From the NCBI RefSeq assembly GCF_006937785.1, contig NZ_SJEE01000001.1:62001-126000 (forward strand): a stretch of 64,000 nt of DNA, given 5' to 3'. Positions 44,711 through 64,000 of this stretch are shown here, in pieces. The position numbers and the translations under genes were made by a program. Source of the DNA: Pseudanabaena sp. UWO311. GTDB lineage: Bacteria > Cyanobacteriota > Cyanobacteriia > Pseudanabaenales > Pseudanabaenaceae. The notes beneath the pieces are model-generated. The model worked only from the letters and a program-made list of their open reading frames with translations. It was not told the origin of the DNA and did not search any database. Position 1 is the stretch's first letter. Each line of letters opens with the position of its first letter.

Positions 44711-44766
44711 CTCTAAAAAACAAAAGCGAGTGGCGGCGCTTTGCGCCACCACTCGCTTTTGTTTTT
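44711..44766 (-). terminator. Hairpin after the recombinase gene
   Basis: Aaaaaacaaaagcgagtgg-cggcgctttgcgcc-accactcgcttttgttttt forms a 17-18-bp stem ending at the recombinase stop codon. Confidence 0.8.
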
Positions 44767-46333
44767 ATATTAAATCTCCTAATAAACTCGATACTTCACC
44801 TTGCATATTGGTGCGATTGTCGTCGTAGAGCATGAGGGTATCGAGCTTTTTGTGTCGTGATAATTTCTGGACTTTACGTACATTGCCATTAGTCGCATCT
44901 AGAGCAGCTGTAATTGCAGAGTGCCGAATGCGATGCGGGGACATATGTTTAGAGATTCCTGCTGCTTGCGCAATCTGTTTAACAATTTGGTAAATAGCTG
45001 TCCCAGTCAGTCTATGTCCGCGATTAGCCAGGTCTAGGGAGTGAAATAATGGCTGATTTGAACTTTTTGTCCCAAAGCAAGATAGCCAGTCTTGTATTGC
45101 GCCAGCTGTTCCAGTGTTAAGACTAATGAGACTCTTTTGAGAGCCACGTCCTTTACCTAAAATTTGCAGCGATCGCGATTCATAATCAAAATCACCGATA
45201 TTAGCGCTAACTACTTCATTGCGGCGGAGAGCATTGTCCCAAAGTAGTCTTAAAATCGCAAAATCACGTTTTCCTTTCATCGTGTCACGTTTGATGCTTA
45301 GTAACATGGTGCGAATACCTTCAGGCTTAATCCCCGTAGTATCACGATAGGTTTGGACTGTCTCAGTTTGGACATCATCAAGATTCCAATTGCATTTTCC
45401 TAATTTTGCCGCGAAGTTTACTAAGGACTTAAGCGCTGATAACCGCCGATTGATTGTGGATTCCTTTAAGCCTTTAGCAATTAGGTCTGATTTGTATCGC
45501 AAAGCGATCGCGATCGCCTCAAATCTATTCAATTGCAAAAATTGAGCAATTACAGCTTCAGTGGGCTTCTGCCCATAGGCTGCAAGGAAAAAATATCGCA
45601 AGTCTTTTTCGTAGGCGCGTCTAGTATTGAGACTCCGTTTGTCAGAAAGTAAAGCCGTTAATATATCGAGTTTACTTTCTGCAAGTGCGTAGGGAGTATT
45701 GCTGGAATTTGTTAATTGATCGTCTACTCTTATTTGAGACTCGCAAATCTCTAGCTGAGTCTCGTTTTGATTCTTGCATTCTAATTCAGATACATCGGTG
45801 ATTCTCGATTGAGACTCGCGAGTCTCAATCATAGTCCTATTTTGCGTCTTATAATCTTGAATTAATACATATTTTTCTTGGCTAAATCGGAGCTGTTCGG
45901 GGGCGATCGCATTATTAACACCTGCATTAACTGCTGCGCGTTTGACAATCCCATAGATCGCTGTTCCCGTCAGCCTATGTCCATAATTAGCGCGATCTAG
46001 CGATATAAATAATGGTGAATGAGAATCCTCTAACCCATTCTCATCGCTGATATGAATCAAATTCAGCCAGTCTTGTAATGCGGTGACTGTGTTCAAGCTG
46101 AGACTAATAATTTCTGGCTGATTTTGCTGATCTTGACGCTTATAGGGTTGTTGAATCAGAAGCGATCGCAACTTAAAGTCAAAATCGCAAATACTAATAG
46201 CTGTAACCTGCTGCCGTTTTAGTGAATTCTCGATTAATAGTCGCAAAATTGCGTAATCGCGCTGACCTGCTAATGTGTAGCGATCGCAAGCCATGAGAAT
46301 TCGCTCTAAACTATCTATTCCTAGATCTATCAT
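44765..46333 (-). CDS. Tyrosine recombinase with an extra, degenerate catalytic domain
   Basis: The protein has 522 residues. The C-terminal half is a normal integrase: core-binding domain about 215-320 (NTRRAYEKDLRYFF), then catalytic residues Arg370 (ALRRNEV), His467-x-x-Arg470 (HRIRH), His494 and Tyr503. The N-terminal about 160 residues are a second, diverged copy of the catalytic domain (RDYAILRLLIENSLKRQQV; HRLTGTAIYGIVKRA). In that copy the first Arg is Lys, the HxxR His is Glu, and no Tyr follows. It looks chromosomal, not clearly linked to the prophage 7 kb away. Confidence 0.88.
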   Translation of the reverse strand: MIDLGIDSLERILMACDRYTLAGQRDYAILRLLIENSLKRQQVTAISICDFDFKLRSLLIQQPYKRQDQQNQPEIISLSLNTVTALQDWLNLIHISDENGLEDSHSPLFISLDRANYGHRLTGTAIYGIVKRAAVNAGVNNAIAPEQLRFSQEKYVLIQDYKTQNRTMIETRESQSRITDVSELECKNQNETQLEICESQIRVDDQLTNSSNTPYALAESKLDILTALLSDKRSLNTRRAYEKDLRYFFLAAYGQKPTEAVIAQFLQLNRFEAIAIALRYKSDLIAKGLKESTINRRLSALKSLVNFAAKLGKCNWNLDDVQTETVQTYRDTTGIKPEGIRTMLLSIKRDTMKGKRDFAILRLLWDNALRRNEVVSANIGDFDYESRSLQILGKGRGSQKSLISLNTGTAGAIQDWLSCFGTKSSNQPLFHSLDLANRGHRLTGTAIYQIVKQIAQAAGISKHMSPHRIRHSAITAALDATNGNVRKVQKLSRHKKLDTLMLYDDNRTNMQGEVSSLLGDLI

Positions 46334-48092: not shown

Positions 48093-48252
48093 CCAGCAAC
48101 TTAGAGAAGAATCTTGGCATAAGGCTAGATGTAGTGATTTTTTACCGATGACTTAGCAGTCCAATGGTGTATTGTTAACTCACTAAAAATGATTTAGGAT
48201 CATCGGCTTAAAACTCATCTTCTTAAAACTGTATTTTGCGGGTATTGAAATA

Positions 48253-49215
48253 ATGGGAAAAGTAATAGCAACTGTAAATATGAAGGGTGGAGTCGGTAAA
48301 ACTACCCTAACAGTAAATATTGCCACCTGCTTGGCTAAAATCCATCGCAAAAAGGTCTTAGTTATAGACTTAGATACCCAAATTAGTGCCACCCTCAGCA
48401 TGATTTCCCCAGCCGAGTTTGCCAAATGCCGCAAAGAAAATCGCACATTGCGAAATTTGGTTAGTCAGGCGATCGCACGTTATGGCGTACAAGTTAATGA
48501 TCCAGAAGAAAAAGTCTATCAAATCAAAGATCTCGTAATTCCTCATGTTTGCAAAGTGCAAGGTTTAGATCTATTAGTTGGTGATATCGATCTATATGAT
48601 GAGTTTCTTGTCTCCGAAATGCTCTATAACCGATCACTGCTATACGATGAGAAACAAACCTTTCAGCAGACTTGGAGCAAGTTCGAGCAAACCTTAATTA
48701 AAAGTATTCTTGCTTCAGCGCTCAAAACCTATGATTTCATTATTCTTGATTGTGCCCCTGGGTATAACTTGATCACTCGCAGTAGTATTGTGGCAAGCGA
48801 TTATTACCTAATGCCAGCAAGACCTGAGCCTTTGTCTGTAGTAGGGATTCAGCTATTAGAAAGACGGATTGAGAGATTGCGTGAAGTCTATCGAGAAGAT
48901 AACTCAATCAATATCCAACTATTGGGGATTGTGTTTAGCATGTCCGCAGGATTTACTCTAAGCAGATATTACCAAAAAGTAATGGATCGAGTAGCTGCGG
49001 ATTTTAGCAGTGCCAAGATTTTTAAAACGAAGATTCCCAATGATGTAAACATTGCCAAAGCTGTAGACAATTTCATCCCAGCTTCCTTAGCTAATCCCAA
49101 TTCAGGCGGAGCAAAAGCTTTTGCTGAGGTTACAGTCGAGCTTTTGAAAAAGCTAGAAGTTTCTCTAGGCAAAAAAGAACAAACTTCTCGATTGAGTTTA
49201 GTTGACTTGGAGTAA
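48253..49215 (+). CDS. ParA/Soj-type ATPase, orphan
   Basis: The 320-residue deviant-Walker ATPase has MKGGVGKTTLTVNIA at residue 10, VLVIDLDTQISATLS, and FIILDCAPGYNLITRSSIVASDYYLMPARPEPLSVVG. Plasmid and chromosome ParA proteins act with ParB, but no parB or parS is nearby. Instead an AbiTii-domain gene starts 4 bp downstream, so the ATPase may serve another partner. Confidence 0.9.
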   Translation: MGKVIATVNMKGGVGKTTLTVNIATCLAKIHRKKVLVIDLDTQISATLSMISPAEFAKCRKENRTLRNLVSQAIARYGVQVNDPEEKVYQIKDLVIPHVCKVQGLDLLVGDIDLYDEFLVSEMLYNRSLLYDEKQTFQQTWSKFEQTLIKSILASALKTYDFIILDCAPGYNLITRSSIVASDYYLMPARPEPLSVVGIQLLERRIERLREVYREDNSINIQLLGIVFSMSAGFTLSRYYQKVMDRVAADFSSAKIFKTKIPNDVNIAKAVDNFIPASLANPNSGGAKAFAEVTVELLKKLEVSLGKKEQTSRLSLVDLE

Positions 49216-49219
49216 TTTA

Positions 49220-53183: not shown

Positions 53184-53552
53184 GTTTATTGCATGTTTTG
53201 TTTTTAATTAGCAATGGGATGAGCATCCCGATAGAAACTACAGTTACGCTAATGCTTAAAGACTTAATTAGCAATAGTTTCAGTCGCCAAATTTTATCTT
53301 GATTCGGGATTACTCATGCAGGACTGCTCATATCATATCTATCAGAACTCCCTATCAATAACTAAAACTAGCTTACGAATTTAAGATTTATAGTTTAGCT
53401 TACGTAAATATCCAACGATTCCCCAAAATGCTTGCTGTGAAAGGATTTTAGTATTTTGAACGGTAATCAAAAATAGACGGTGAGACTACAAACAAGTCCT
53501 ACAATAAGACATACAATCTTATTGTAGGACTTGTTTGTATGGAGGGTGCAAA
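53184..53552. other. Intergenic region at the left edge of the phage-like element
   Basis: The 369-bp gap contains AT-rich DNA without recognisable genes and a perfect inverted repeat at 53487-53539 at its right end. It is the most likely left boundary of the element, but no direct repeat marking an attachment site was recognised. Confidence 0.55.
53487..53539. promoter_or_regulatory. Perfect 23-bp inverted repeat abutting a ribosome-binding site
   Basis: Arms 53487-53509 and 53517-53539 (tacaaacaagtcctacaataag and complement), 7-nt loop. GGAGG lies at 53541-53545 and ATG at 53553. Transcribed, it would form a strong leader hairpin right before the RBS. Confidence 0.75.
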
Positions 53553-53822
53553 ATGCCTAGAGCGAAAGGTCAGCTAACAAAAAAGCAACAAATTGGGACA
53601 CAAGGAATCAGATCGACTATCCCGTTAACGGTTTTTAGTGAGGATGAGGTCAAATTATTACTCTCCTACCTTTGGCACTGGGATATAGCCACAGACCAAG
53701 ATAATAATCCTAAGCTCGTTCGTGCTTCCAAGAGTTGTAAACCAGCAATGGCGATCGGTCAGACTAACTACTGTAGATTGCGCTATAAGTTAGAAAATTT
53801 CCTAACACCAAAAAACCTCTAG
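53553..53822 (+). CDS. Small basic protein at the edge of the phage-like element
   Basis: The 89-residue basic protein (MPRAKGQLTKKQQIGTQGIR, then FSEDEVKLLLSYLWHWDIAT) has no recognised family. GGAGG with 7-bp spacing decides ATG 53553; the upstream ATG at 53535 lies inside the inverted repeat. It converges with the next minus-strand gene, overlapping by 4 bp. Possibly a regulator of the element. Confidence 0.6.
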   Translation: MPRAKGQLTKKQQIGTQGIRSTIPLTVFSEDEVKLLLSYLWHWDIATDQDNNPKLVRASKSCKPAMAIGQTNYCRLRYKLENFLTPKNL

Positions 53823-54055
53823 CTTTCAAAATGATCGGAAACCCTAAACTTCCGATTTTGTTTTATTTCAGACTTAATGTCTTTGTTGTCTTCCTTTAGA
53901 GCTGCAAGTTCAGTATGAATAACCGCGATTTTCCCTAACACTTCAGTTTTTCCCACTTCTTGGGCTTGCTTTATCTCATTGATAGCGCTTGTCACTCTCA
54001 CCGTACTGATAAGAATGCCAATAGCTAAACTAGCTTCGATTACAAACGGGGGCAT
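53819..54055 (-). CDS. Small membrane-anchored coiled-coil protein (phage-like)
   Basis: The 78-residue protein has one N-terminal hydrophobic helix (VIEASLAIGILISTV) and a charged helical remainder (KIAVIHTELAALKEDNKDIK). This plan is seen in small phage holin-accessory or Rz-like proteins; no sequence match is claimed. It is last of four minus-strand genes that run from 55592. Confidence 0.55.
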   Translation of the reverse strand: MPPFVIEASLAIGILISTVRVTSAINEIKQAQEVGKTEVLGKIAVIHTELAALKEDNKDIKSEIKQNRKFRVSDHFES

Positions 54056-54057
54056 AA

Positions 54058-54456
54058 TTACAAATTTCCTAAGAATAAATTTGAATTGTCTAGTCTGATA
54101 ACTTCGATAGATGGATCGTAGAGACTCTCGTAAATCGTGATAACTGTTACGGCTTTCAGCTTGGTTGATGGCACGATTACGAGCTTATATTTAGTCGCGG
54201 TTGAAATGTCGATATCGACTAGATTTTTATCGAATTTCAAGGATTGCGATCGCGCCGCCGTAAAGCCTAAAGTCGGGATAAATAGAAACGGTTGCAAACT
54301 TCCAAAATAATTAGAGTTGCCTCTGATTTGCCTTGAAATATTCGCAACCGATAGATCTATAACGAGCCTAGACTGTGTAAGCAATAGAGGGATAGCGTAT
54401 TCACGTTTGAGTCCGAAATTGACGCTAGCCCTATGCAACAGCTTAAGGTTGTTCAT
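54058..54456 (-). CDS. Hypothetical protein of the phage-like element
   Basis: The 132-residue protein is mixed alpha/beta (KYKLVIVPSTKLKAVTVITIYES), with no membrane segment or motif recognised. It is 2 bp from the next gene and 6 bp from the previous one, so it is part of a four-gene minus-strand operon. No HIP1 site occurs except at its far end (54246). Could be a small structural protein. Confidence 0.55.
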   Translation of the reverse strand: MNNLKLLHRASVNFGLKREYAIPLLLTQSRLVIDLSVANISRQIRGNSNYFGSLQPFLFIPTLGFTAARSQSLKFDKNLVDIDISTATKYKLVIVPSTKLKAVTVITIYESLYDPSIEVIRLDNSNLFLGNL

Positions 54457-54462
54457 TAGTTC

Positions 54463-54903
54463 CTACTTCTTGGAAGTATCGCCAGTCTCGTATTTTGTAC
54501 CCGCTGGGGTAATAAATACCTTAGCCTTGCTGTTTTTTGTTAGAGCCTCAATAGCCTTACTGTACGAGCAACCAGACGGAACGATAACGGAATAGAATTG
54601 AACACCATCGGCAGAGCAACGAAGCTTCCGACGGGCGCTTTTAGTACCGTTCTTTCGAGGCAAGTATTTAGCCGTCTTAGACTTGTTATCAACTAGGCTA
54701 GGAGCTTTCGAGGCGGCTGCTTTCTTGAGTTTGATATCAAGAGCAGTAATGGTACTTTCTGAGACTTTTGCAACCAGATCGATAGAGGACTTTGCATTCT
54801 TGGGCTTAATGCTTGCGAACACAATCGAAACCTTCTTACCGCCTCCAGCGCTCTTTCCCTTAGTACCAGTCTTTTTAGTTGATGGCTTTTTGGTCGTTGC
54901 CAT
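54463..54903 (-). CDS. Hypothetical protein with histone-like basic N terminus
   Basis: The 146-residue protein has a Lys/Thr/Gly/Ser-rich tail (TTKKPSTKKTGTKGKSAGGG) followed by a basic domain with few acidic residues. Such tails bind nucleic acid non-specifically. The position in a presumed structural operon would fit a DNA-packing or capsid-lining protein, which is inference. Confidence 0.6.
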   Translation of the reverse strand: MATTKKPSTKKTGTKGKSAGGGKKVSIVFASIKPKNAKSSIDLVAKVSESTITALDIKLKKAAASKAPSLVDNKSKTAKYLPRKNGTKSARRKLRCSADGVQFYSVIVPSGCSYSKAIEALTKNSKAKVFITPAGTKYETGDTSKK

Positions 54904-54992
54904 AATTTAGGATTCCTTTAAGAATGAGATTTGATTGAATCAAGAGAGATTTATGAGAGATAGAAAAAGCTATTTCTATCTCTCATAACCAA

Positions 54993-55499
54993 CTACACGT
55001 AATCGAGTGCAGTGAGGGTGATTTCACCAGCCGAGCCGAAAGAAGGGGTAAAAGGAATTTGTGCGGTGATTGTTGCGATACGAGTTTCCAAGCTGATATC
55101 AACTTGAATATTCGTAGGACGATCGGTCTCAGGCGTAACAGCAAGTTCAGCAGCAGATAACTTTTGAGCGATTTCCAAGGTAGCACCTTGCAATGTTGTA
55201 GACTTCGCGGTACCAGTGCCGGGAACGAAAGCACTGTAAGAACCGCCTAAATAATCGGTTGGAACGGAAACAATTCCACCTGAAGTATTTGCACTTTCAG
55301 AGATTGGAAGTGTGACAGCAATATCGTAAGAATTTGTATCGAAATTCGCCGACATCGCGACATTATTTTTCGGAGCTTGGCTAGAGTTAGCAGCATTGCG
55401 AGTCTTTTCAGCTTCGTTCAACTTGCGAACAACTTCTACAAAAGCACCTGCTAAAGTTGTAGAGTCTAAATCTGAACCAGTAGGGGTATATACGGACAT
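54993..55499 (-). CDS. Hypothetical repeat protein of the phage-like element
   Basis: The protein has about 168 residues from ATG 55499 (up to 199 if GTG 55592 or ATG 55571 is used; the latter has GGGG upstream). It contains two homologous units of about 70 residues: STTLAGAFVEVVRKLNEAEK...YDIAVTLPI and STTLQGATLEIAQKLSAAEL...ATITAQIPF. No family is recognised. First gene of the minus-strand operon, so it may be the most highly expressed. Confidence 0.6.
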   Translation of the reverse strand: MSVYTPTGSDLDSTTLAGAFVEVVRKLNEAEKTRNAANSSQAPKNNVAMSANFDTNSYDIAVTLPISESANTSGGIVSVPTDYLGGSYSAFVPGTGTAKSTTLQGATLEIAQKLSAAELAVTPETDRPTNIQVDISLETRIATITAQIPFTPSFGSAGEITLTALDYV

Positions 55500-55723
55500 A
55501 CGTTTAAGCGTTGGATGTGGAACGTTTACGAGGTTTAGTAATGCCTTAAAATCAAAAAATCGTAAACTCATAAAACCCCAAAAAGCTTTCACTAACTGGC
55601 ATTTTGGTACATAGCGAAAACATTTCGACAGTAGGGGCGAAATGAGCTTTTATGCCTTTACGAAAATTTTTTTTATGACCATAATCAAACCCATAAATTT
55701 ATTAAGAATTCGGGTTAATTGCA

Positions 55724-56050
55724 ATGACAGCAATGGTTAAAACGGGGTCGCCCAGTAGTGCCCAACATCGCTTACCTGACAATGTCGATACGGTTGAAAA
55801 GGCTATTGCATGGGGTCTCGAAATTATGTGGGATTTATACGGAGCTTCAGAGTTCTACCCTGTAAAGAATGCAGCTCCCGTAATGAGAGTGCAAAAGAAT
55901 ACTTTTAAAGCTGGCAATGGCAAGCGGACTAATCTTTACTCGGTTTACCTTACTGTTGACGAGGATTTTGGGCGGGATGGTAACACGAAAGAATGGCTAG
56001 CTACTGAAGAAATCGGGGCCGCTGTGGCTAGCAATGGATTTAATAGCTAA
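55724..56050 (+). CDS. Hypothetical protein of the phage-like element
   Basis: The 108-residue protein is soluble (DTVEKAIAWGLEIMWDLYGA; YSVYLTVDEDFGRDGNTKEW). No motif recognised. It starts the plus-strand block 55724-60164 and diverges from the minus-strand operon, so the 55500-55723 gap should carry divergent promoters. Confidence 0.55.
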   Translation: MTAMVKTGSPSSAQHRLPDNVDTVEKAIAWGLEIMWDLYGASEFYPVKNAAPVMRVQKNTFKAGNGKRTNLYSVYLTVDEDFGRDGNTKEWLATEEIGAAVASNGFNS

Positions 56051-56082
56051 CAGTAAAAATTGAACTATAAACACTAAAATCG

Positions 56083-57465
56083 ATGACTCTATTTACAAAC
56101 ATTTGGAATGCTGATCACGAATTTTCTGACGGCAATATTGAGATTGCAAACACTCTAAGCAGTCTGCGTAAAGCTTATATCGAAACTCTCGTTACAGGGC
56201 TTTCTGACAGCTTGGCTTATCCAATCTTGCTAGGGTTCTTATATCAGATTGATGCTAGCGCAAAGCGCTCGAAACCTTATCCAATTGTGTCTCAACGTCA
56301 AACGATCAATCTAGATTTGTCAGAGTGCGAGACATTCATTTTTATTCCATCAAATCGACTGATTGATGATTACACCTTGAAGTTGTATGTATCGACAGAA
56401 TCAGGCGACGGGGAATCTGTTGACCTGACTGCATACGCTCTTAAAACTGAATTACCAGACTTTGACAGCTTCGTTACTCAAGAATCTCTAGTGACAGCTT
56501 TGAGTGACTATGCTTTGGTTTCACAACTGCCAGATCTATCGAGTTATGTGAGTGAATCAGAACTAGAGACGGCATTAAGTAACTACGTCTCGGTTTCACA
56601 ACTGCCAGATCTATCGAGTTATGTGACTGAATCAGAACTAGCCACGGCATTAAGCTCAGTCGCTAGTTTTCAAAACTTTATCCCTAGTGCGACAAGCACA
56701 ACCCTTGAAAGTGGTAAAAGCTATCAATCTACAGCATCAGATTTAGTTTTTACGCTTCCATCTTCGCCAAGTATTGCTGATGTAATTAAGCTAGCAACTG
56801 GTGATTTTTCGCTACTCACACGACATGGCAATGCTTTGCAGCGAATCTTGAATAGCAATACTTTTACTGTCACAGGCTCAAACAATGGAATCATGCTCAA
56901 ACCTTATAGCTCTATTAGCTTGAGGTTCTGTGGATTCAATATATGGGCAGCTTTTGACAAAACCAGAACCGTAAATAATTTCACCCCAATTACTCAAGAG
57001 TCAACCGCGACAAAGAAAAACTACACAGCTACAGCCCCTGTAGCTGCATACGGCGCTCTCATTTCTGGTATTTGGAATGGAGTGAAATCATTAGGGGCAC
57101 TTGCTAATGGATATCTCTCTGACGCAACCACAGGCGATATTTTAGTCACGGTTTCCGAACCAATTCTATTAAGCCAAATCAGGCTGTGCAATGGACAAGC
57201 TAATGTAGGGCTCGGAATCAATGATCCTTATTCTGTGAGAGACATTAAAATTTATGCTGGCAGTACAGATACAGCTGAATACTTAGGTGTATACACTTTT
57301 TCTAATACCAGTGCTGCTGAGGAGAACAAGGCTATTACTCAGAATACGGCTCCATCAAATACTTTCTTGTTTAGGGTGAATTCCGTCACGCCGCGAATAA
57401 TCGGTATTTTAGAGCTTGAGCTTTGGGGGAAAGGCGCGACAGGGGGGGAAGTGTCGGTATCTTAG
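56083..57465 (+). CDS. Fibre-like protein with tandem repeats and a C-terminal discoidin-like domain
   Basis: The protein has 460 residues. A middle region (about 125-200) repeats L-S-D/N-Y-x-x-V-S-Q-L-P-D-L-S-S-Y-V-x-E-S-E-L-x-T-A-L with a 78-bp nearly identical nucleotide repeat (56515-56592, 56593-56670), typical of trimeric fibre stalks. The C-terminal about 150 residues (LVTVSEPILLSQIRLCNGQA; VRDIKIYAGSTDTAEYLG; GILELELWGKG) resemble F5/8-type discoidin sugar-binding folds. Role as receptor-binding fibre is inferred. Confidence 0.68.
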   Translation: MTLFTNIWNADHEFSDGNIEIANTLSSLRKAYIETLVTGLSDSLAYPILLGFLYQIDASAKRSKPYPIVSQRQTINLDLSECETFIFIPSNRLIDDYTLKLYVSTESGDGESVDLTAYALKTELPDFDSFVTQESLVTALSDYALVSQLPDLSSYVSESELETALSNYVSVSQLPDLSSYVTESELATALSSVASFQNFIPSATSTTLESGKSYQSTASDLVFTLPSSPSIADVIKLATGDFSLLTRHGNALQRILNSNTFTVTGSNNGIMLKPYSSISLRFCGFNIWAAFDKTRTVNNFTPITQESTATKKNYTATAPVAAYGALISGIWNGVKSLGALANGYLSDATTGDILVTVSEPILLSQIRLCNGQANVGLGINDPYSVRDIKIYAGSTDTAEYLGVYTFSNTSAAEENKAITQNTAPSNTFLFRVNSVTPRIIGILELELWGKGATGGEVSVS

Positions 57466-57499
57466 AGGAATTTGATTTAAAAGTTGATTTAATAAAAAT

Positions 57500-59461
57500 A
57501 TGGCAACCCAAAACTCATTAACTGCGGACCAACTGAGACAGCTAGAGAGGCAATTAAACCAAGGAGCTGTGCCGTTCAGCCCTCCTACCGTTCCTAGTGA
57601 CAATGGTTTGCTAAGGCAGCCTCCAAACATCCCAAATACTGCGCCTACTGCATCACAAGCACAAAGACTGATTGAAGATCTAAACAAACGCACTGCGCCC
57701 ACTCCAACAACAGCGCCCACACCTAGCACCCCTATCCCCCCGATAAATACACCGCCAAGCGCTTCTCTAGGGCAGAGGGTAAATACTGCCTTAACCTCTC
57801 CTATCTCCTTTCCTGCTGCTGACAAAGTAAATAATGTATTGAATAAAGCGGGAAATGCCGCTGCTGTTGCAAGTGTTGCGCTAAGCGTTGGTGGATCGCT
57901 TGCTAATGCTGTACGAAATCCTAATGCAAATGCATTAGCACAAAGCGCGGTAACCACTGCCGCTGGAGCTTTGTTACTTGCGCCAAATCCTTATGCTAAG
58001 GCGGCTGGGTTAGCTTTGTCAGTGTTGGGCTCTCCAATAGTTAATCTAGTATTCCCTAGTAAAGAAAATGTCGCTCCAAGCAGATCGGCGTTACCTTTTT
58101 CTGGAGGGCAAAACGATACACTGTATAGGCTTTATATTTCCTATACCGTAATAGCGACAGGGGCTAGAGTTCCATCCTTCCCATTCAACTCTATTCAGGG
58201 GGGGATACGTGGAGCTGAATCATTCACGAACATAAACGAATCGAGTGGAATAATCGTTTATGGGAAAGATGGACAGGTTTCATTCTCTGCAAATTCTTCT
58301 TTCTATAGAGATTTCACTTTAGATCGGGTAGAGAGAGTTGATGGGCTGCCAGATCCTGACAAAATAAATTATGTCCCTTTAGTTATTAATGATGGGAGGT
58401 CTACAGCTCCTCCTTTCGATTTCGACCCTAGCGCTATTGGTGACGCATTAAAGAAACTTGAAGACTTGAAAAACAGCGTCAATGGCTTAAGTGATGACAA
58501 CGTAGAGATCCTTAATCAATTAAGGAATTTGGCTAATCCATCGACTTCTAATCCGTTGCAAAGTGCTCCTGTTGCTCCAAATTCAGCACCATTGCCAAGT
58601 ATTGCGCCGCCTGATAGCAAAGCCCCAAAGAAGGATGATGATAAGGAAAGCTTGGCGGATAAGCTAAAAAAACTAGCGCCTAATAGTACTCCTTCGGCGG
58701 CTTCAGCACCTTTAGCCAAAGCTGGTAGTAGCAATCTTGTCGATCAAGTCAACCAGATAAAGAAAGCCAATGAAGAACATGCTCTAAAAGACACAAAAAA
58801 TACTACACAAAATCAACAAGATAGATTTAGAGATCCGAAGGATTGCCAGTTTAGTTGCGAGAATTTGGCTAAGTGCTTTACTGATTTAAAGGTTCAAATA
58901 TTTGATGGGTGTAATCCTGAAAATGGAACTGCGAAAACTAAGGAGATTACTATTCAAGTTTTGCCAAAGGATAAGGCTAAAACAGAGGCATCATTCAAGG
59001 AATTACTTGATATTAGGTCTAGAGAATGTAGCTTGAATGATCGTGTGCTATCGGTTCCAGAATACTGGCAAGTGAGGGTTGGACAAAAGCCACAGGCGGC
59101 GATTGTTTACCGTGAGTTTAAGGATGGTAAATTTACTAATAGCTGTTGGACTTTGCACATTCCACATTACACAGGGAATAAGAATAGCAAGCCGAATTTA
59201 TCGCAATATAGCAAGGGTGAATCCAGTGCTATCTATGTCTGTAAGGATAATTCTCAATTACAGGTGTATGCCTCAACTGAGGCTGAAGCTAAGCGATTAA
59301 TCAATCAATTAGAGAAGTATATTGACCCTAAATTTAGAGGCGATATCGTTAAGTATGGAACTCGTAAAGGTATCAAGAAAACCACTGTCCGCCCTGTGAG
59401 ACTTGATTACTATTCGACTGGGCAATTGTCGCTTAGTCCTGATTGGAGTATTGCTTTATGA
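57500..59461 (+). CDS. Large unknown protein of the phage-like element
   Basis: The protein has 653 residues. The N-terminal 100 residues are Pro/Thr/Ala-rich and low-complexity. A hydrophobic Ala/Leu-rich stretch at about 108-185 (AAAVASVALSVGGSLANAV, AAGALLLAPNPYAKAAGLAL) has a membrane-insertion look. A charged helical region lies at about 320-420, and a Cys-rich domain at about 450-640 (CQFSCENLAKCFTDLK; DGCNPENGTAK). No family is recognised. It overlaps the next gene by 4 bp (ATGA). Confidence 0.6.
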   Translation: MATQNSLTADQLRQLERQLNQGAVPFSPPTVPSDNGLLRQPPNIPNTAPTASQAQRLIEDLNKRTAPTPTTAPTPSTPIPPINTPPSASLGQRVNTALTSPISFPAADKVNNVLNKAGNAAAVASVALSVGGSLANAVRNPNANALAQSAVTTAAGALLLAPNPYAKAAGLALSVLGSPIVNLVFPSKENVAPSRSALPFSGGQNDTLYRLYISYTVIATGARVPSFPFNSIQGGIRGAESFTNINESSGIIVYGKDGQVSFSANSSFYRDFTLDRVERVDGLPDPDKINYVPLVINDGRSTAPPFDFDPSAIGDALKKLEDLKNSVNGLSDDNVEILNQLRNLANPSTSNPLQSAPVAPNSAPLPSIAPPDSKAPKKDDDKESLADKLKKLAPNSTPSAASAPLAKAGSSNLVDQVNQIKKANEEHALKDTKNTTQNQQDRFRDPKDCQFSCENLAKCFTDLKVQIFDGCNPENGTAKTKEITIQVLPKDKAKTEASFKELLDIRSRECSLNDRVLSVPEYWQVRVGQKPQAAIVYREFKDGKFTNSCWTLHIPHYTGNKNSKPNLSQYSKGESSAIYVCKDNSQLQVYASTEAEAKRLINQLEKYIDPKFRGDIVKYGTRKGIKKTTVRPVRLDYYSTGQLSLSPDWSIAL

Positions 59462-59943
59462 GCGCAATTACCGACGGCATGAGACAAGTATTTATAGAAA
59501 CTTGTAGGCTCTATCAAGCGGAAAGAGAGTATAACTATTTGAATTATGGAAAGTATCCCTATAGGGAACGAAAAAACTCTGTTCAGATAATTGCTGATTT
59601 TAACGAGAATGCTTACAGTGTAAACGGTCTGTTTACTGTAGAGAGTGAATATACGCAGGTTTATCCGCCTGAAATCATTGAATCTATTGAGCAGGTTTTA
59701 ATCGGTACTACGTCTGTTTTTACTACGATCTATGAGGTAATTGAGAATCCTATGCCAAATGAATCAGGGGTGATACTTACGGCTACAGTTACTCCCGAAT
59801 TGCTTGCAGAATACGAGATATACAATACGATTATCACTCGTGATTATGTGGAGCGCGAAGCGGTCACGATCCAAGTCGTTAGTTATGCTTTTCCGTTTAA
59901 TTGTGTGGCTGATAGTTTGGGTAGGTTAGTTTTAAGTTTTTAA
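59458..59943 (+). CDS. Hypothetical protein of the phage-like element
   Basis: The 161-residue protein (AITDGMRQVFIETCRLYQAE; then mostly beta, with repeated VxxxYEVIENPM and VYPPEIIESIEQV segments) has no recognised family. ATG 59458 overlaps the preceding stop by 4 bp, supporting coupling. The frame upstream of it belongs to the end of the larger protein. Confidence 0.58.
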   Translation: MSAITDGMRQVFIETCRLYQAEREYNYLNYGKYPYRERKNSVQIIADFNENAYSVNGLFTVESEYTQVYPPEIIESIEQVLIGTTSVFTTIYEVIENPMPNESGVILTATVTPELLAEYEIYNTIITRDYVEREAVTIQVVSYAFPFNCVADSLGRLVLSF

Positions 59944-59954
59944 GGAGTTTTAAA

Positions 59955-60164
59955 ATGCTTACTATTTTTGAAAAGATTGAAAGAGGTCATGTCAACTTAT
60001 CAGATACCAATAATGATAAAGACTTGATTATGTTTTATCTAAAACAAGCCTATAACGAAGGCATACAGGCAGGTAAAGAAGAAGTCAGAGTCAACATGGA
60101 TAATATTTATAGGGCTATTTATATTTTTCTAGAGAATGGCAATGAAGAATTCTTTGATAAATAA
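59955..60164 (+). CDS. Small hypothetical protein of the phage-like element
   Basis: The 69-residue acidic helical protein (LTIFEKIERGHVNLSDTNND, then YLKQAYNEGIQAGKEEVRV) has aaggag 5 bp before the ATG. It closes the HIP1-free block; the first HIP1 after it is at 60168. No family recognised. Confidence 0.6.
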   Translation: MLTIFEKIERGHVNLSDTNNDKDLIMFYLKQAYNEGIQAGKEEVRVNMDNIYRAIYIFLENGNEEFFDK

Positions 60165-60328
60165 AAGGCGATCGCAGATTTTGCGATCGCATCTATCATG
60201 AGCTAATATAAAAACATCGTGGTGATTTACAGCTTAAGCGCTGCCATGAAAAGCGATAGACTCGCTCGACAGATAAAGGGTGATAGCAGTCTTTGGGGTT
60301 CGACTCCCTGCAAAAACTTCCGCAATTG

Positions 60329-60385
60329 CGGCAATAACAAGAAAGGCGATCGCAAAATCTGCGATCGCCTTTCTTGTTATTGCCG
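60329..60385 (-). terminator. Long HIP1-containing palindrome at a gene 3' end
   Basis: 25-bp perfect arms (60329-60353 and 60361-60385) containing a HIP1 octamer each, 7-nt loop. The stop of the minus-strand gene (60377-60379) sits inside the arm. Confidence 0.8.
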
Positions 60386-60832
60386 ATCTCTCAAAACATC
60401 CTCTATAGCCTTTTCGATTAACCATAGCCTAGACCTGTTCGGGTAATTTCTCCTTAGTCCTTCAAGAATGCGATCGCAAGTGGCTTGATCTCTTATTAGG
60501 GATAGCAGGTATTGTTCTTTCTCTCTCTTGTTTTCACGTCTTGAGACCTTGTTTCTACTAGGCTTGACTTTATCTAACTCATACTTGATTCCTAGCACTA
60601 ATAAAATCAAAAATATTGACGAAGACACCACCACAAAAAGCCCTTGGGGTATCGTCAATCCGAAAAATACCAAGAAGTTTGCAAAAAGGAAAGCGATCCA
60701 CCCTAACAAAAGTATGATCGCCGCCCAAACTAAATATTGAATAAGTTTTTCTAGTTGGTAACTACCCTGAAAAGCCCAAAATATCGTACCTGCGGCGATC
60801 GCAAAACATACCAATCCTAGAAATAAACTCAT
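60377..60832 (-). CDS. Membrane protein linked to the repressor gene
   Basis: The 151-residue protein has three hydrophobic segments in the first 85 residues (LFLGLVCFAIAAGTIFWAF; YLVWAAIILLLGWIAFLFAN; LFVVVSSSIFLILLVLGI) and a long basic tail (SRRENKREKEQYLLSLIRD). No family is recognised. It begins directly after the stop of the XRE-type gene, so the two are co-transcribed. A superinfection-exclusion role would be typical of such a position, but is only a guess. Confidence 0.62.
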   Translation of the reverse strand: MSLFLGLVCFAIAAGTIFWAFQGSYQLEKLIQYLVWAAIILLLGWIAFLFANFLVFFGLTIPQGLFVVVSSSIFLILLVLGIKYELDKVKPSRNKVSRRENKREKEQYLLSLIRDQATCDRILEGLRRNYPNRSRLWLIEKAIEDVLRDRQ

Positions 60833-61192
60833 CTACCTTCCTGCACTCTCCGCGATCGCGACTAACCTATCACTAACAGCTCTATAAAGCTGAGTTAGAT
60901 CTTGGATACTCATGGTTTTAAGTTGACCCATGACATATAGAGGGTTAACTGAATTATCAATCTTTTGATCCGAATCTCCGTTAATAGTTGACATCAAATC
61001 TTCAAGAGATAACCCAGCATAGTTGGCAATTTTAGATAAATTTGCCGAACTCGGACTATTAACTTCTTCGTTTTCCCATGCTTGTATTGCTCCATAGGTA
61101 ACACCAAGAATGTGAGCGAACTCCTTCTGAGTAAGGGTTCCCCGAAGATTCTTAACTAATTCTGCAAATTTTCTTTTAGCATTGCTGTCCAT
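60833..61192 (-). CDS. XRE-family HTH regulator, probable repressor
   Basis: About 119 residues from ATG 61192 (126 from ATG 61213). The Cro/CI-type HTH at about residues 10-60 reads LTQKEFAHILGVTYGAIQAWENEEVNSPSSANLSKIANYAGLSLEDLM. The C-terminal half is short, with no peptidase domain. Divergent from a ribbon-helix-helix-like gene, with a set of dyads between them, like a lysogeny switch. Confidence 0.85.
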   Translation of the reverse strand: MDSNAKRKFAELVKNLRGTLTQKEFAHILGVTYGAIQAWENEEVNSPSSANLSKIANYAGLSLEDLMSTINGDSDQKIDNSVNPLYVMGQLKTMSIQDLTQLYRAVSDRLVAIAESAGR

Positions 61193-61207
61193 GGACTTTA
61201 CACAGAA

Positions 61208-61310
61208 ACACATATATATGTTTTACCACAAATACACCTGTATGTATTGACACACTTATGCTTATGTGTTTAGATCAGATCTGTCCATATAAAACATACA
61301 GATATGTATA
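61208..61310. promoter_or_regulatory. Divergent operator region of the switch
   Basis: Dyads of similar wording: ACATATATATGT at 61210-61221, ATACACCTGTAT at 61232-61243, ACACTTATGCTTATGTGT at 61252-61269 (weaker), and ACATACAGATATGT at 61294-61307. The last overlaps the ATG of the plus-strand gene (61304). This spacing suits a repressor binding several operators. Confidence 0.65.
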
Positions 61311-61495
61311 CGATAGAAAAAGCACGGCTGAACCTTACTGTTTCAAATGACGCAGATGACAAGTTACGGGAGCTTGCTCTGAAGCATCGTAAGTCTTTAA
61401 CCCTCAGCGAGATCGTTGAGGAAATGATCCATCATTGTGTTCACAATCCCAACTTCATCGAAAAACTCACCAAAAAAGAAGAGATCGATCGCTAG
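61304..61495 (+). CDS. Small ribbon-helix-helix-like protein (Cro position)
   Basis: The 63-residue protein starts with a short strand (KARLNLTVSNDADDKLRELA) followed by two helices (TLSEIVEEMIHHCVHN). This is the plan of CopG/Arc-type DNA-binding proteins. It sits opposite the XRE regulator across the operator region and heads the early operon to 64000. Confidence 0.7.
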   Translation: MYTIEKARLNLTVSNDADDKLRELALKHRKSLTLSEIVEEMIHHCVHNPNFIEKLTKKEEIDR

Positions 61496-61560
61496 TTCCA
61501 GCTAGTAATCAATCTCTTCTTTTTTGTTTTTGCACAGACACATCAAACCAATTAGAGACT

Positions 61561-61752
61561 ATGCAACCAAACAATCTTACAGCAACCATCTGGCTATCGC
61601 CTTACCGATTGACCTATCGGACAAGTGACCACGAACTCACAGGTGCAATCAACCGCCCCGATCCAGACCTCCTACAGAAAACCCTAGAGCGTCTCTACGC
61701 CTATCTAATCAACGAAGGCTATTCACCCCTAATTTTGCACATGGAGCATTAA
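61561..61752 (+). CDS. Hypothetical protein, early operon
   Basis: The 63-residue protein (TATIWLSPYRLTYRTSDHEL; LLQKTLERLYAYLINEGYSP) has no recognised family. ATG 61561 is chosen because the upstream frame runs through the previous gene. Next gene follows at 6 bp. Confidence 0.58.
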   Translation: MQPNNLTATIWLSPYRLTYRTSDHELTGAINRPDPDLLQKTLERLYAYLINEGYSPLILHMEH

Positions 61753-61758
61753 TTAACT

Positions 61759-62052
61759 ATGACATTCCCACAACCCGCTGGCTATTACAGCTTGCCGCTA
61801 TCAGAATCCGCAGAGAGTTTGATTACCAGCTTGGACTATAAACAAACCTTTAACTTGCTTTATGACGTTGTTTTTTGTGAATCCGCAGAGGTCATTGGTA
61901 CTCGCTTTTATGCAATGAGCCTATCTCTAGTTAAGTGGTTTGAAGATGAGATCGACGCATTGAGTCCAGCAAACAAGATTGCTTTGATTCGTTGGTTAAG
62001 CGATCGCCTTGCATTCCTGCACAACGTACCAGTCCAAGAGGTGACCAAATGA
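61759..62052 (+). CDS. Hypothetical protein, early operon
   Basis: The 97-residue, mainly helical protein (LITSLDYKQTFNLLYDVVF; FEDEIDALSPANKIALIRWL) has no family recognised. Its stop overlaps the next start (ATGA at 62049-62052). Confidence 0.6.
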   Translation: MTFPQPAGYYSLPLSESAESLITSLDYKQTFNLLYDVVFCESAEVIGTRFYAMSLSLVKWFEDEIDALSPANKIALIRWLSDRLAFLHNVPVQEVTK

Positions 62053-62297
62053 TTGACACACTCAAGATTGATTACCATCTCAGCTACTACAACGCCGCCG
62101 CAAGTACCTTAGCTAGAGGGATTGACGACCCAAAGGAGTTTGCAAGAGTTGACACCATTCGTAAGGCTAGCTTCGTAGCGATCGCTCTAGAGATAGGGGT
62201 AATAACTGCGATCGGTGCTGCCGATCTATCCCGTGAAGAGTGGGAAAGAACTATTTCTTGGATTAGTGATTACGAGAATAAGGAGATTGCAGCATGA
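62049..62297 (+). CDS. Hypothetical protein, early operon
   Basis: The 82-residue helical protein (YHLSYYNAAASTLARGIDDP; IGVITAIGAADLSREEWERT) is coupled to both neighbours by 4-bp ATGA overlaps (62049 and 62294). No family recognised. Confidence 0.6.
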   Translation: MIDTLKIDYHLSYYNAAASTLARGIDDPKEFARVDTIRKASFVAIALEIGVITAIGAADLSREEWERTISWISDYENKEIAA

Positions 62298-62869
62298 GGA
62301 ACTATGAACATTACCCACAAGCGATCGAAAGACTTGTTGATTTCACTGAAAGCATGGCTACGTTCTTGGATGATCTTGTTATTTCGATGCTGGGTGAGGA
62401 TGCAGCCTGGTCTAACCATGTTGGGGTGGAGAGCATCCCTCTAAAGTACGTCGAGACAGATGTTGCCACCGTTTACAACCATAAAAACAAGGTTTGGCGA
62501 CTCCGTAAAGAGGCTAATTCGCTCTTACTAATCGAAACTGATCACCACGTAAAGGAATGGGCAGAGATTGTATCCGAGGTGAATGAAACCTGTAAGCAGC
62601 AACGTAAACAGCTTGAGTCCCAACGGGGGACTATTGACCTAGCTCGCAAAGAAATTACACGGCTGGATAAGGTCATCACCGAAATGAAAAGTGATGTTGT
62701 CAACAGGTTTCACAGCATCAATATCTTGATTGCAACTTCAATCCGCAATTGCGATATAGGTCTATCTCACTGGAAGCGAGATGAACGTCTTAAGCATTTG
62801 AGAGATGTAGTACGCGACCAAATCAAGGAGGTGCAAAGCCATTGCCACTCCTACAATGACGACTTTTAA
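62294..62869 (+). CDS. Coiled-coil hypothetical protein, early operon
   Basis: The 191-residue protein has a central coiled coil of about 45 residues (VNETCKQQRKQLESQRGTID, then LARKEITRLDKVITEMKSDV). No catalytic motif. It overlaps the next gene by 14 bp. Could be a recombination or replication accessory; not recognised. Confidence 0.6.
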   Translation: MRNYEHYPQAIERLVDFTESMATFLDDLVISMLGEDAAWSNHVGVESIPLKYVETDVATVYNHKNKVWRLRKEANSLLLIETDHHVKEWAEIVSEVNETCKQQRKQLESQRGTIDLARKEITRLDKVITEMKSDVVNRFHSINILIATSIRNCDIGLSHWKRDERLKHLRDVVRDQIKEVQSHCHSYNDDF

Positions 62870-63158
62870 CCAATTCATGCGATCGCAACTTTACCCAGTG
62901 AAATTGCGATCGCTATTTTTCAACAAGTTAAAAGATATGGCAAAGAAACCACCAAAGCCGCTATCCAAAGCCCAATTACACCTTAAAGCTTGCCATCTCC
63001 TAGGCTTGCCCCCCAGTTGCATTTTAAATGTTGTCCAAAATTCGGGTAAATCAAAATACTTCATTCATTACGTGACTCTTTCTCCCAGAAAGAAAGCAAT
63101 TTACTCAACTGAGCTAGTTCCTGCCAAGGACTTAGAGAGGTCGAAACCATGCCGATGA
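62856..63158 (+). CDS. Basic hypothetical protein, early operon
   Basis: The 100-residue very basic protein (KKPPKPLSKAQLHLKACHLL; SPRKKAIYSTELVPAKDLER) is probably nucleic-acid binding. It overlaps both neighbours (14 bp upstream, 10 bp with the HNH gene), so translation is likely coupled. Internal ATG at 62938 could be an alternative start. Confidence 0.55.
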   Translation: MTTFNQFMRSQLYPVKLRSLFFNKLKDMAKKPPKPLSKAQLHLKACHLLGLPPSCILNVVQNSGKSKYFIHYVTLSPRKKAIYSTELVPAKDLERSKPCR

Positions 63159-63448
63159 ACCGCAAACTTTATCCACCTGACTGGAATGCGATCGCTTTTG
63201 AAGTAAAGCAAAAGGCTCACTGGATTTGCCAGAAATGTGAAAAGCAATGCCTTAGACCTGATGAAGTAGCTGAAGCCCATAAAGATTGGGCTATTCATAC
63301 ACTCACAGTTCACCACATCGATCATGTGCCGATGAATTGCGATCGCAAAAATCTAATCGCACTTTGCAGCGTGTGCCACCGTCGCCAACACGCCCATGAC
63401 AAGAAATTTGGAATCACCACCCATCAACCAAGTCTTTTTCAGCTATGA
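63149..63448 (+). CDS. HNH endonuclease-like protein
   Basis: The 99-residue protein has CQKCEKQC (first zinc Cys pair), HHIDHVPMNCDRKNLIALCSVCH (HNH core with the second Cys pair) and no other domain. HNH proteins of this size are frequent in prophages as nicking or packaging nucleases. ATGA overlap with the primase-like gene. Confidence 0.88.
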   Translation: MPMNRKLYPPDWNAIAFEVKQKAHWICQKCEKQCLRPDEVAEAHKDWAIHTLTVHHIDHVPMNCDRKNLIALCSVCHRRQHAHDKKFGITTHQPSLFQL

Positions 63449-64000
63449 AATTTTCCATCTTTGATCACGTTCAATTCAACAAAACAGGTAGGGCAATATG
63501 TCCATCGTGCCTACTGACAAAGGGGGAAGGATACCGCAAATACAATTTATCGGTATCACTTCAACCCGCCGATCATGGTGCATACACTTGCCATCGTGGC
63601 TGCACAACCGAGCAAATCAGAGAGTCGATCGGGGATGCAAAGCCACTTGAGAAAACTTATATCCCTACAGCCAAGCCGCCTAAGCCAGTCGAGTATAAAA
63701 GCACCCGTGAGATTGAGTCACGGGCGCAATTGCTATTTGAGACAGCAGGGTATAACGCCCCCAAGGCTCTTCAATATTTATTAGACAGGGGGATTCAATC
63801 AAGGACTTTAGAGTATTTCAAGATCGGACTTACTTACAAAAAATTTCAGTGTGGGGAAAATTGGGAAGATTATCCTTGCATCTTCATTCCCTACGAAATT
63901 GAGACGGGTAAATGGTTAGGGAAATATTTCCCTAACAAATGGCTGCCAGAATCGGAACGACCAGAACAACAAATGGCACAACCATCGGTAACCGCACGAT
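63445..64000 (+). CDS. Primase-like protein, 5' part (cut by window end)
   Basis: 185 residues are visible from ATG 63445, and the frame is open to the end. An N-terminal zinc-binding ribbon (ICPSCLL near residue 19, then CHRGCTT near 50) and the following helical segment (YLLDRGIQSRTLEYFKIGL, CIFIPYEIETGKWLGKYF) match the start of phage or plasmid DnaG-like primases, where the second block precedes the TOPRIM core. It is the last member of the coupled early operon and supports a replicating element. Confidence 0.75.
   Translation, partial: MKFSIFDHVQFNKTGRAICPSCLLTKGEGYRKYNLSVSLQPADHGAYTCHRGCTTEQIRESIGDAKPLEKTYIPTAKPPKPVEYKSTREIESRAQLLFETAGYNAPKALQYLLDRGIQSRTLEYFKIGLTYKKFQCGENWEDYPCIFIPYEIETGKWLGKYFPNKWLPESERPEQQMAQPSVTAR

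Follow-up and report, generated by a model that had tools for sequence, protein, structure and literature searches.

What use does a recombinase have for a second catalytic domain that has lost the residues needed for catalysis? The question is raised by a gene in the DNA analysed here, a stretch of 64,000 nucleotides from the 5.2-Mb genome of Pseudanabaena sp. UWO311 that is referred to as the window. A first-pass annotation had placed a tyrosine recombinase at positions 44765-46333 and had described it as two related copies within one protein, the N-terminal one being dead. The open reading frame is exact, lies on the minus strand, starts with ATG and encodes 522 amino acids, and PF00589 scores above its curated cut-off in both halves (73.8 and 32.1 bits in a search of the window's own genome; cut-off 27.1).

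Architecture and distribution of the fused recombinase

The gene, its parts and a neighbour that recurs below are located as follows:

44765..46333, minus strand: tyrosine recombinase gene with an N-terminal dead catalytic domain, 522 aa (open reading frame, PF00589, genus-wide layout)
45878..46333, minus strand: dead (pseudo) catalytic domain, residues 1-152 (second PF00589 stretch, AF2 model, VIA)
45935..46015, minus strand: presumed DNA-reading segment of the dead domain, residues 107-133 (dN/dS, invariant columns)
45668..45868, minus strand: variable low-confidence linker, residues 156-222 (dN/dS 0.57; low pLDDT)
45344..45667, minus strand: core-binding (SAM-like) domain, residues 223-330 (PF02899 at 228-309; dN/dS 0.05)
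44768..45343, minus strand: active catalytic domain, residues 331-522 (PF00589 at 350-507; five invariant residues)
48253..49215, plus strand: ParA-family ATPase, neighbour between the gene and its site (found in 13 of 18 named loci)

The order of domains is thus dead catalytic (about 1-152), linker (about 156-222), core-binding (PF02899) and active catalytic (PF00589). The losses noted earlier for the N-terminal copy are all borne out: the box-I arginine is replaced by K39 and the histidine of the HxxR motif by E146, and the tyrosine is absent. This copy additionally lacks the β-hairpin lysine (GKG) and the third histidine, and the only catalytic residue it retains is R149, the second arginine of HxxR, which is invariant in all 19 aligned sequences. 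It stops past the HxxR helix, and in 25 genomes a linker of 51-85 aa takes the place of the part that would hold the last histidine and the tyrosine. The active copy possesses R370, H467, R470, H494 and Y503, just as had been proposed, and these residues together with K394 are invariant in the same number of sequences. The C-terminal half therefore has the make-up of the tyrosine recombinase superfamily (PF02899 plus PF00589, R...K...HxxR...H/W...Y), which the N-terminal copy lacks at the level of its catalytic residues. Across the genus the dead half is 42-52% identical to the active half encoded in the window.

The protein is the only intact tyrosine recombinase detected in its genome. At an E value of 0.001, PF00589 matches in three places, namely the two halves of the 522-aa protein and a TetR_N protein, whose recombinase-like domain is devoid of catalytic residues as judged by eye. 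The best NCBIfam score is that for XerA_Arch (138.4 bits), below the cut-off of 220, and the scores for XerC (135.5 bits, cut-off 335) and XerD (136.5 bits, cut-off 330) likewise lie below the respective equivalog cut-offs.

When modelled alone, the dead domain adopts the fold of a catalytic domain (AF2: pLDDT 76.8, pTM 0.77) and not a small unrelated fold as in recombinases of the lambda type. Its best VIA rows are chains of XerA, XerD and XerH; it superimposes on XerA (5hxy_D) with Z 17.2 and rmsd 2.2 over 134 residues, on XerH with Z 15.3 and rmsd 2.6 over 135 residues and on MrpR (8a0a) with Z 11.7 and rmsd 3.0 over 130 residues, further rows being 9rgl and 9rd5. The full-length model is poor (pLDDT 63.6, pTM 0.35), with residues 151-222 below a pLDDT of 50.

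A merely recent fusion, which the first-pass annotation had allowed for, should have been betrayed by relatives possessing the second half alone or by frameshifts in the N-terminal part. Instead, the fused layout is intact in all 25 Pseudanabaena genomes with a readable gene; both halves are kept and stop codons are absent. The whole fused gene is present as a single copy without internal stops in 25 of the 26 genomes of the genus; in the 26th (G006) the gene occurs only as a fragment at a contig edge. The sample of the family comprised 38 genomes, the 26 of the genus and 12 others. Outside the genus the fused layout recurs in G031, in a frame of 448 aa with a shorter dead part. In G277 the dead part ends one contig and the active part lies at the edge of another, G032 encodes the dead part and the start of the core-binding domain before its contig ends, and G028 carries a single-domain gene with different neighbours (judged by eye). 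Eight family genomes from four other genera gave no match at 1e-5. Among 18 named loci, taken with flanks of about 4 kb on each side, the neighbours include a cytochrome-b561-like protein in 16, ParA in 13 and a glycosyltransferase in six cases.

A 28-bp chromosomal site and its inserted elements

Relatives of the protein are found at an E value of 1e-25 in 64 of 388 genomes of the class and 28 of 160 genera. Outside the family they are frames of 319-377 aa, barring fragments and frames broken by stops. At 1e-20, 118 plasmid records contain relatives, some of which adjoin genes for ParA, ParB-like proteins or CyRepA1, and an 11-6-11 inverted repeat is situated directly upstream of several of the plasmid recombinase genes. 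A site matrix built from 12 loci was tested on 35 other genes, a set that includes near-duplicates: 11 genes have an upstream site scoring at least 13 and one has such a site elsewhere in its locus, while the best site lies upstream in 17 cases and not upstream in 18. The consensus of 30 family sites (about RNTWNYGRAAA-CNNNCA-TTATCRNWANY) is partly circular because these sites were picked by eye, and the 12-locus matrix is the cleaner test.

Within 4 kb of the Pseudanabaena gene this matrix finds nothing above 10.6 (18 loci), a conservation scan near the gene finds only a segment upstream of parA (17 loci), and a first and a second broad site pattern gave hits at about the control rate. Two candidates were discarded. 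Position 63530 of the window, which has the top score with the plasmid matrix, lies in a primase-like coding frame, and nine of 200 simulated windows score equally well. The sequence AATATCGAAATT-TGTCGA-..., present in 15 of the 38 family genomes, runs from the end of one reading frame into the start region of the following one; the module that holds the match is presumably of the HigB/HigA type.

The chromosomal site was first picked by eye as one sequence recurring near the gene, and a narrow pattern, GYTTRYGTAAANARCCATTATCGYAARC allowing up to three mismatches, served to test it. The pattern matches 24 of the 26 genomes of the genus (all but G001 and G017) and one of the 12 other family genomes, namely G031, which has the fusion; the reversed control gave no hits. 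In this 28-bp site two inverted arms of 11 bp enclose a centre of 6 bp, the anatomy of dif, which PMC8371274 describes as two 11-nt repeats with a 6-nt spacer, and judged by these sequence features it is probably the chromosomal target of the fused recombinase. It is present once in 22 of the 24 genomes and twice in G021 and G006; both second copies and the match in G015 are of a variant type. In G001 the contig bearing the gene ends 4.2 kb upstream of it. In G017 the left arm and centre are exact and lie, together with an accessory half-site (see below), 5.4 kb upstream of the gene; a divergent arm follows, so that the sequence resembles an insertion junction rather than a whole site. Gene and site share a contig in 17 genomes, and the site is always on the 5' side of the gene, at a distance of 4.9-7.5 kb in 12 of them and of 11-36 kb in five. 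In three of the five far cases (the window's genome, G020 and G024) an inserted element separates the two.

In the window the junction and the element occupy the following positions:

53398..53425, plus strand: attL, comprising the host left half-site and centre at 53398-53414 (no mismatches to GCTTRCGTAAATAHCCA) and then a divergent element arm at 53415-53425 (junction comparison)
53415..64000, no strand assigned: first part of a 13.4-kb element at the site, continuing past the end of the window (junctions)

Positions 53398-53414 correspond to left arm and centre, GCTTACGTAAA-TATCCA, and the sequence diverges afterwards. The complete site of this genome, attR, is found at G000:C1:128771-128798, 2.77 kb beyond the end of the window and separated from attL by 13,373 bp. 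The centre and nearly the whole left arm are common to attL and attR; the arms differ in that attL reads GCTTACG and attR GCTTGCG, as would result from an exchange of arms between host and element. Similar pairs of junctions enclose 13.7 kb in G016, 12.1 kb in G020 and 13.6 kb in G024, where centre and right arm are common instead. Elements of 12.1-13.7 kb thus sit at the site in four genomes. That of the window's genome carries primase-like and HTH genes; the genome-wide profile search (E 0.001) found no PF00589 recombinase within it, and Pfam scans of ten of its open reading frames, serine recombinases included, did not detect any recombinase either. A dif-like site, hybrid attL and attR and no detected recombinase of its own make up the layout of an IMEX (integrative mobile element exploiting Xer), and from these sequences the elements appear to use the host site.

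The presence of elements in four genomes and of a junction in a fifth (G017) bears the possibility that the 28-bp sequence is not a site for dimer resolution at all, being for example a landing site of mobile elements. It also fits such a reading that the site does not lie opposite dnaA: the two are 1.38 Mb apart in the 4.73 Mb of G002, 0.95 of 4.53 Mb in G023 and 1.39 of 4.93 Mb in G022, that is 21-29% of the contig in these three genomes, where dnaA need not mark the origin. A role linked to ParA would agree with the location of this gene between recombinase gene and site in the window's genome and in G022. We nevertheless regard these explanations as doubtful, since most of the 24 genomes have the site in one copy at which no junction was detected, and the junctions in the window's genome carry different left arms, as though half an element site had been joined to half a host site, which looks like exploitation of a site that belongs to the host. 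By its anatomy the arrangement resembles a Xer/dif-like system with one enzyme, and resolution of chromosome dimers is its likely function; given the position relative to dnaA, resolution at the terminus is put forward as a candidate role only.

Half-site copies flanking the core and the role of the dead domain

A further half-site lies next to the host arm of the window:

53371..53382, plus strand: left accessory half-site of the host, GCTTACGAATTT, at a gap of 15 bp to the core (sole zero-mismatch copy of GCTTACGAAWTT in the 64-kb window)

Such accessory half-sites are inverted 12-mers that repeat the outer 7 bp of the core. They were counted at 23 chromosomal-type sites among 27 rows (G021b, G006b, G015 and G031 left out). 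On the left, GCTTACGAAWTT pointing inward is present with at most one mismatch in 19 of 23 and with at most two in 22 of 23 cases; on the right, its inverse is found in 21 and 23 of 23, respectively. The background at one mismatch or less is seven forward and one reverse occurrence in 1991 windows of equal length. The 12-mer was defined on the same flanks on which it was later counted, and the 23 sites are not 23 independent cases because the genus shares descent. Four of the 46 flanks are owned by elements (the left ones in the window's genome, G016 and G020, the right one in G024). G020 is the only failure on the left; at its other junction, where the flank belongs to the host, the motif is present at a gap of 5. 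Host flanks also carry it in G024 (right, gap 26) and in the window (left, gap 15). All 15 zero-mismatch copies of the 12-mer in 343 kb, made up of stretches chosen around gene and site, sit at the site or at a junction. Accessories are missing from the second copy of the site in G006 and from the only match in G015, and they are weak at the second copy in G021.

The gaps between core and accessory half-sites cluster at 5-7, 14-15, 25-27 and 36-38 bp, close to 5, 15, 26 and 37 bp and hence to whole helical turns. The best period is 10.5 bp, with R 0.93 for all 45 gaps and R 0.84 for the 13 distinct values. When the sides are taken separately the best period is 9.6 bp on the left and 10.7 bp on the right, which counts against the arm-binding reading given below; for the centres 5, 15, 26 and 37, which were chosen by us, equal phasing by chance has a p of 0.0026. 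The spacers between core and accessories are 40-56% identical as against 83-100% for the accessories themselves (gap classes with at least three rows, G020 and G024 also omitted), so that simple conservation of the whole block does not account for the repeats. In G031, whose dead part and linker are shorter, GCTTAC on one side and ATAAGC on the other directly adjoin the core, one turn further in (a single case, seen by eye). In the opposite orientation the 12-mer occurs with at most two mismatches in none of 23 left and six of 23 right flanks, the latter counting against a reading of these repeats as arms.

Of the 30 family sites, those of 28 single-domain relatives served as control and have no accessory copies beyond chance. 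With the outer 9 bp of the half-site as 9-mer, none of their 56 flanks matches with at most one mismatch (0.8 expected) and six match with at most two (9.5 expected), compared with 13 (0.4 expected) and 35 (6.3 expected) of 46 flanks in the fused genus. In the latter, 9-mers of opposite orientation are also more frequent than expected (7 of 46 with at most one and 19 of 46 with at most two mismatches), perhaps because the 9-mers are nearly palindromic. As motifs in helical phase, the flanking repeats would be counterparts of the arm sites of lambda Int.

Which part of the protein may read the repeated bases is indicated by two lines of evidence, the first being selection within the dead domain. 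The first-pass annotation had regarded purifying selection on this domain as informative, and it is indeed apparent: the pairwise dN/dS in 25 sequences is 0.18 for the dead domain, 0.57 for the linker, 0.05 for the core-binding and 0.08 for the active domain. Residues 107-133 of the dead domain reach 0.058, with 15 of 27 columns invariant in the 25 sequences, and the remainder of the domain has values of 0.18-0.29. This segment contains GHRLTGTAIY, which is also present in the active copy, and the two copies are identical at 12 of 14 positions in this helix and at 48 of 108 outside it. We take the helix to be the DNA-reading one, as in Cre and Xer structures. The dead half is old, present throughout the genus and selected, chiefly in the presumed DNA-reading segment.

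The assignment of the helix is supported by the second line of evidence, its covariation with the outer half-site. Among 23 proteins (22 of the 30 family sites plus Pseudanabaena) the similarity of the outer 6 bp follows that of the reading helix (partial Mantel r 0.29, p 0.001) and is unrelated to that of the core-binding domain (r -0.06, p 0.71); it also follows the rest of the catalytic domain with the helix removed (r 0.36, p 0.0005). L103, a single-domain protein from another family, has the helix GHRLTGTAIYQLV with the same GTAIY, and the arms of its site, GCTTAAG and GCTTACG, are Pseudanabaena-like; accessory copies are lacking there. Taken together, covariation and L103 imply that a domain bearing this helix but no core-binding domain should read GCTTACG and ignore the inner bases. 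The accessories keep the outer 7 bp and are without the inner AA, in agreement with what is expected of reading by such a domain.

From the constrained helix and the half-sites beside the core we infer that the dead domain binds DNA, and it is probably an arm-binding domain that grips the accessory half-sites of a Xer-like system with a single recombinase. The core-binding and active catalytic domains would clamp a half-site of the core and cut beside the 6-bp centre, and the dead domain, flexibly tethered by the linker, would dock without cutting on the accessory half-site beyond the core. Compared with a core half-site, this accessory retains the outer GCTTACG and lacks the inner AA. Each protomer would in this way grip the DNA twice, and the second grip may raise both affinity and specificity at the chromosomal site and contribute to the synaptic geometry, a service that lambda integrase obtains from its arm sites.

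It is conceivable, if unlikely, that extra full-length protomers, or a neighbouring dimer, occupy the accessories with their active halves, and that the dead domain is otherwise employed, for example in holding protomers together. The outer 7 bp of the accessories are common to the core, so that the active domain could read them, and the length of the linker does not track the accessory spacing (rho 0.25, p 0.31, n = 19 genomes). However, the inner AA that the accessories lack occurs in both arms at each of the 30 family sites, some of which were collected with a matrix that favours AA, and likewise in all 27 cores matched by the narrow pattern. Moreover, the single-domain relatives share the active half, yet their sites have no such repeats beyond chance, and constraint on the dead copy peaks in its reading segment.

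Pseudoenzymes often act as scaffolds or caps, and the conservation of the dead domain as a protein would also be compatible with a protein-protein scaffold or an autoinhibitory cap that makes no contact with DNA. We consider this quite improbable, because constraint is strongest in the segment presumed to read DNA and because the half-sites beside the core would be left without an explanation. The suggestion in the first-pass annotation that the pseudo-domain organises synapsis or regulates the active domain in the manner of pseudo-kinases is partly supported: a synaptic or architectural role exerted through DNA binding is likely in view of the constrained segment and the extra half-sites beside the core, a more specific function than that of a regulator akin to pseudo-kinases, with allosteric regulation at most a possibility.

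Comparison with known systems and origin of the fusion

Single-recombinase Xer systems (XerA/dif of archaea, XerH/difH and XerS) likewise consist of one recombinase and one 28-bp site of 11-6-11 layout. The Pseudanabaena system differs in the additional dead catalytic domain, in the accessory half-sites and in scores below the curated cut-offs. The single-domain plasmid recombinases of cyanobacteria, 48-57% identical (matches 2-30) and in many cases with a dif-like site directly upstream of the gene, have neither a dead domain nor accessories beyond chance. In lambda Int, an N-terminal arm-binding domain of small, unrelated fold grips arm sites that have a motif of their own. The Pseudanabaena protein would resemble it insofar as its N-terminal domain is predicted to grip flanking arms and its C-terminal half to act on the core; unlike in lambda Int, the reading of the arms would fall to a dead catalytic-domain copy, and the arms themselves are repeats of the outer half-site. 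If this holds true, duplicating and killing a catalytic domain is a new route to a bivalent recombinase, and the spacing rule of about 5, 15, 26 and 37 bp makes the arm-binding model directly testable.

A tyrosine recombinase fold that has lost recombinase function and kept DNA binding is described for MrpR in PMC10516654. MrpR/YopR of SPbeta and SroF of phi3T are repressors sharing this fold with the dead domain; they are free-standing and do not read a recombination site, unlike the dead domain of Pseudanabaena, which is fused to an active recombinase in all 25 readable genomes of the genus. According to PMC3025954, a published prediction yielded dif for none of five single-chromosome cyanobacteria, and a candidate chromosomal dif-like site is now supplied for this phylum. 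Neither a fused dead recombinase domain nor a dif of cyanobacteria is named in the portions of the open-licence literature searched, and within that literature this would be the first description of a dif-like chromosomal site with elements exploiting it in a cyanobacterium.

The origin of the fusion was addressed with a tree that took in 14 of the 25 genus genomes. The dead domains of these 14 Pseudanabaena genomes and of G032 form one clade (100/98), which does not nest among the active domains, and the two from genus g7 are placed apart from it with a very long branch. A single dead clade (p-AU 0.41) and a clade uniting dead and active domains (p-AU 0.48) both withstand topology tests, which fit an internal duplication and the fusion of two recombinases alike. 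On balance it seems fairly likely that a catalytic domain, once duplicated, gave up its chemistry and was co-opted as the arm-binder of the same recombinase, where it reads copies of its own half-site at whole helical turns to either side of the dif-like chromosomal site. That the N-terminal copy is a passive leftover of fused tandem genes, for which its shorter form in genus g7 and a plausible source in the tandem recombinase genes of a Calothrix plasmid might be adduced, is hardly credible in view of 25 genomes free of stops and dN/dS values of 0.18 and 0.058 against 0.57 in the linker. The Calothrix plasmid carries three such genes in tandem, an arrangement that represents a possible route to fusion. 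Plasmid AP018292, which at 99% cover had seemed to encode the same fusion, was rejected as such: two adjacent genes of a tandem array lie there in one frame.

Elements at the chromosomal site

In its own genome, the 28-bp dif-like chromosomal site, the probable target of the fused recombinase, is occupied by the following element:

Window 53415-64000, continuing to G000:C1:128770 (L237 and L238): inserted element, 13.4 kb

This element carries HTH and primase-like genes, and no recombinase gene was detected in it. The site is also occupied in three other genomes of the genus (G016, G020 and G024) by insertions of 12.1-13.7 kb, and an insertion junction is present at the site in G017. In G020, an extra junction lies 91 bp from the site, the pattern that a tandem array would give.

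G006, G015 and G021 have second or variant site copies (L204, L207 and L197) whose accessory half-sites are weak or absent; these copies are perhaps located on plasmids or elements.

Surroundings of parA and other recombinase genes

Of 17 Pseudanabaena loci, up to 11 share a conserved noncoding segment upstream of parA (window 48158-48199). An AbiTii-like gene (window 49202-50158) adjoins parA in the genome of the window; in G022, other genes hold this position.

On contig C47 of the genome of the window (G000; L052, 1396-2664), a TetR_N domain is fused to a PF00589 domain that, judged by eye, lacks the catalytic residues, a second dead recombinase domain in this genome. Plasmid2 of Calothrix NIES-4105 bears a tandem run of three related recombinase genes (L083, 3635-6890).

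Flank switches at the HigB/HigA-like junction

Around the junction between genes that we take to be HigB/HigA-like, flanks switch at or near a dif-like 28-mer in four of 16 copies (L170, L173, L177 and L180), which may reflect module exchange or plain deletion; for L177, a contig edge may be the cause instead.
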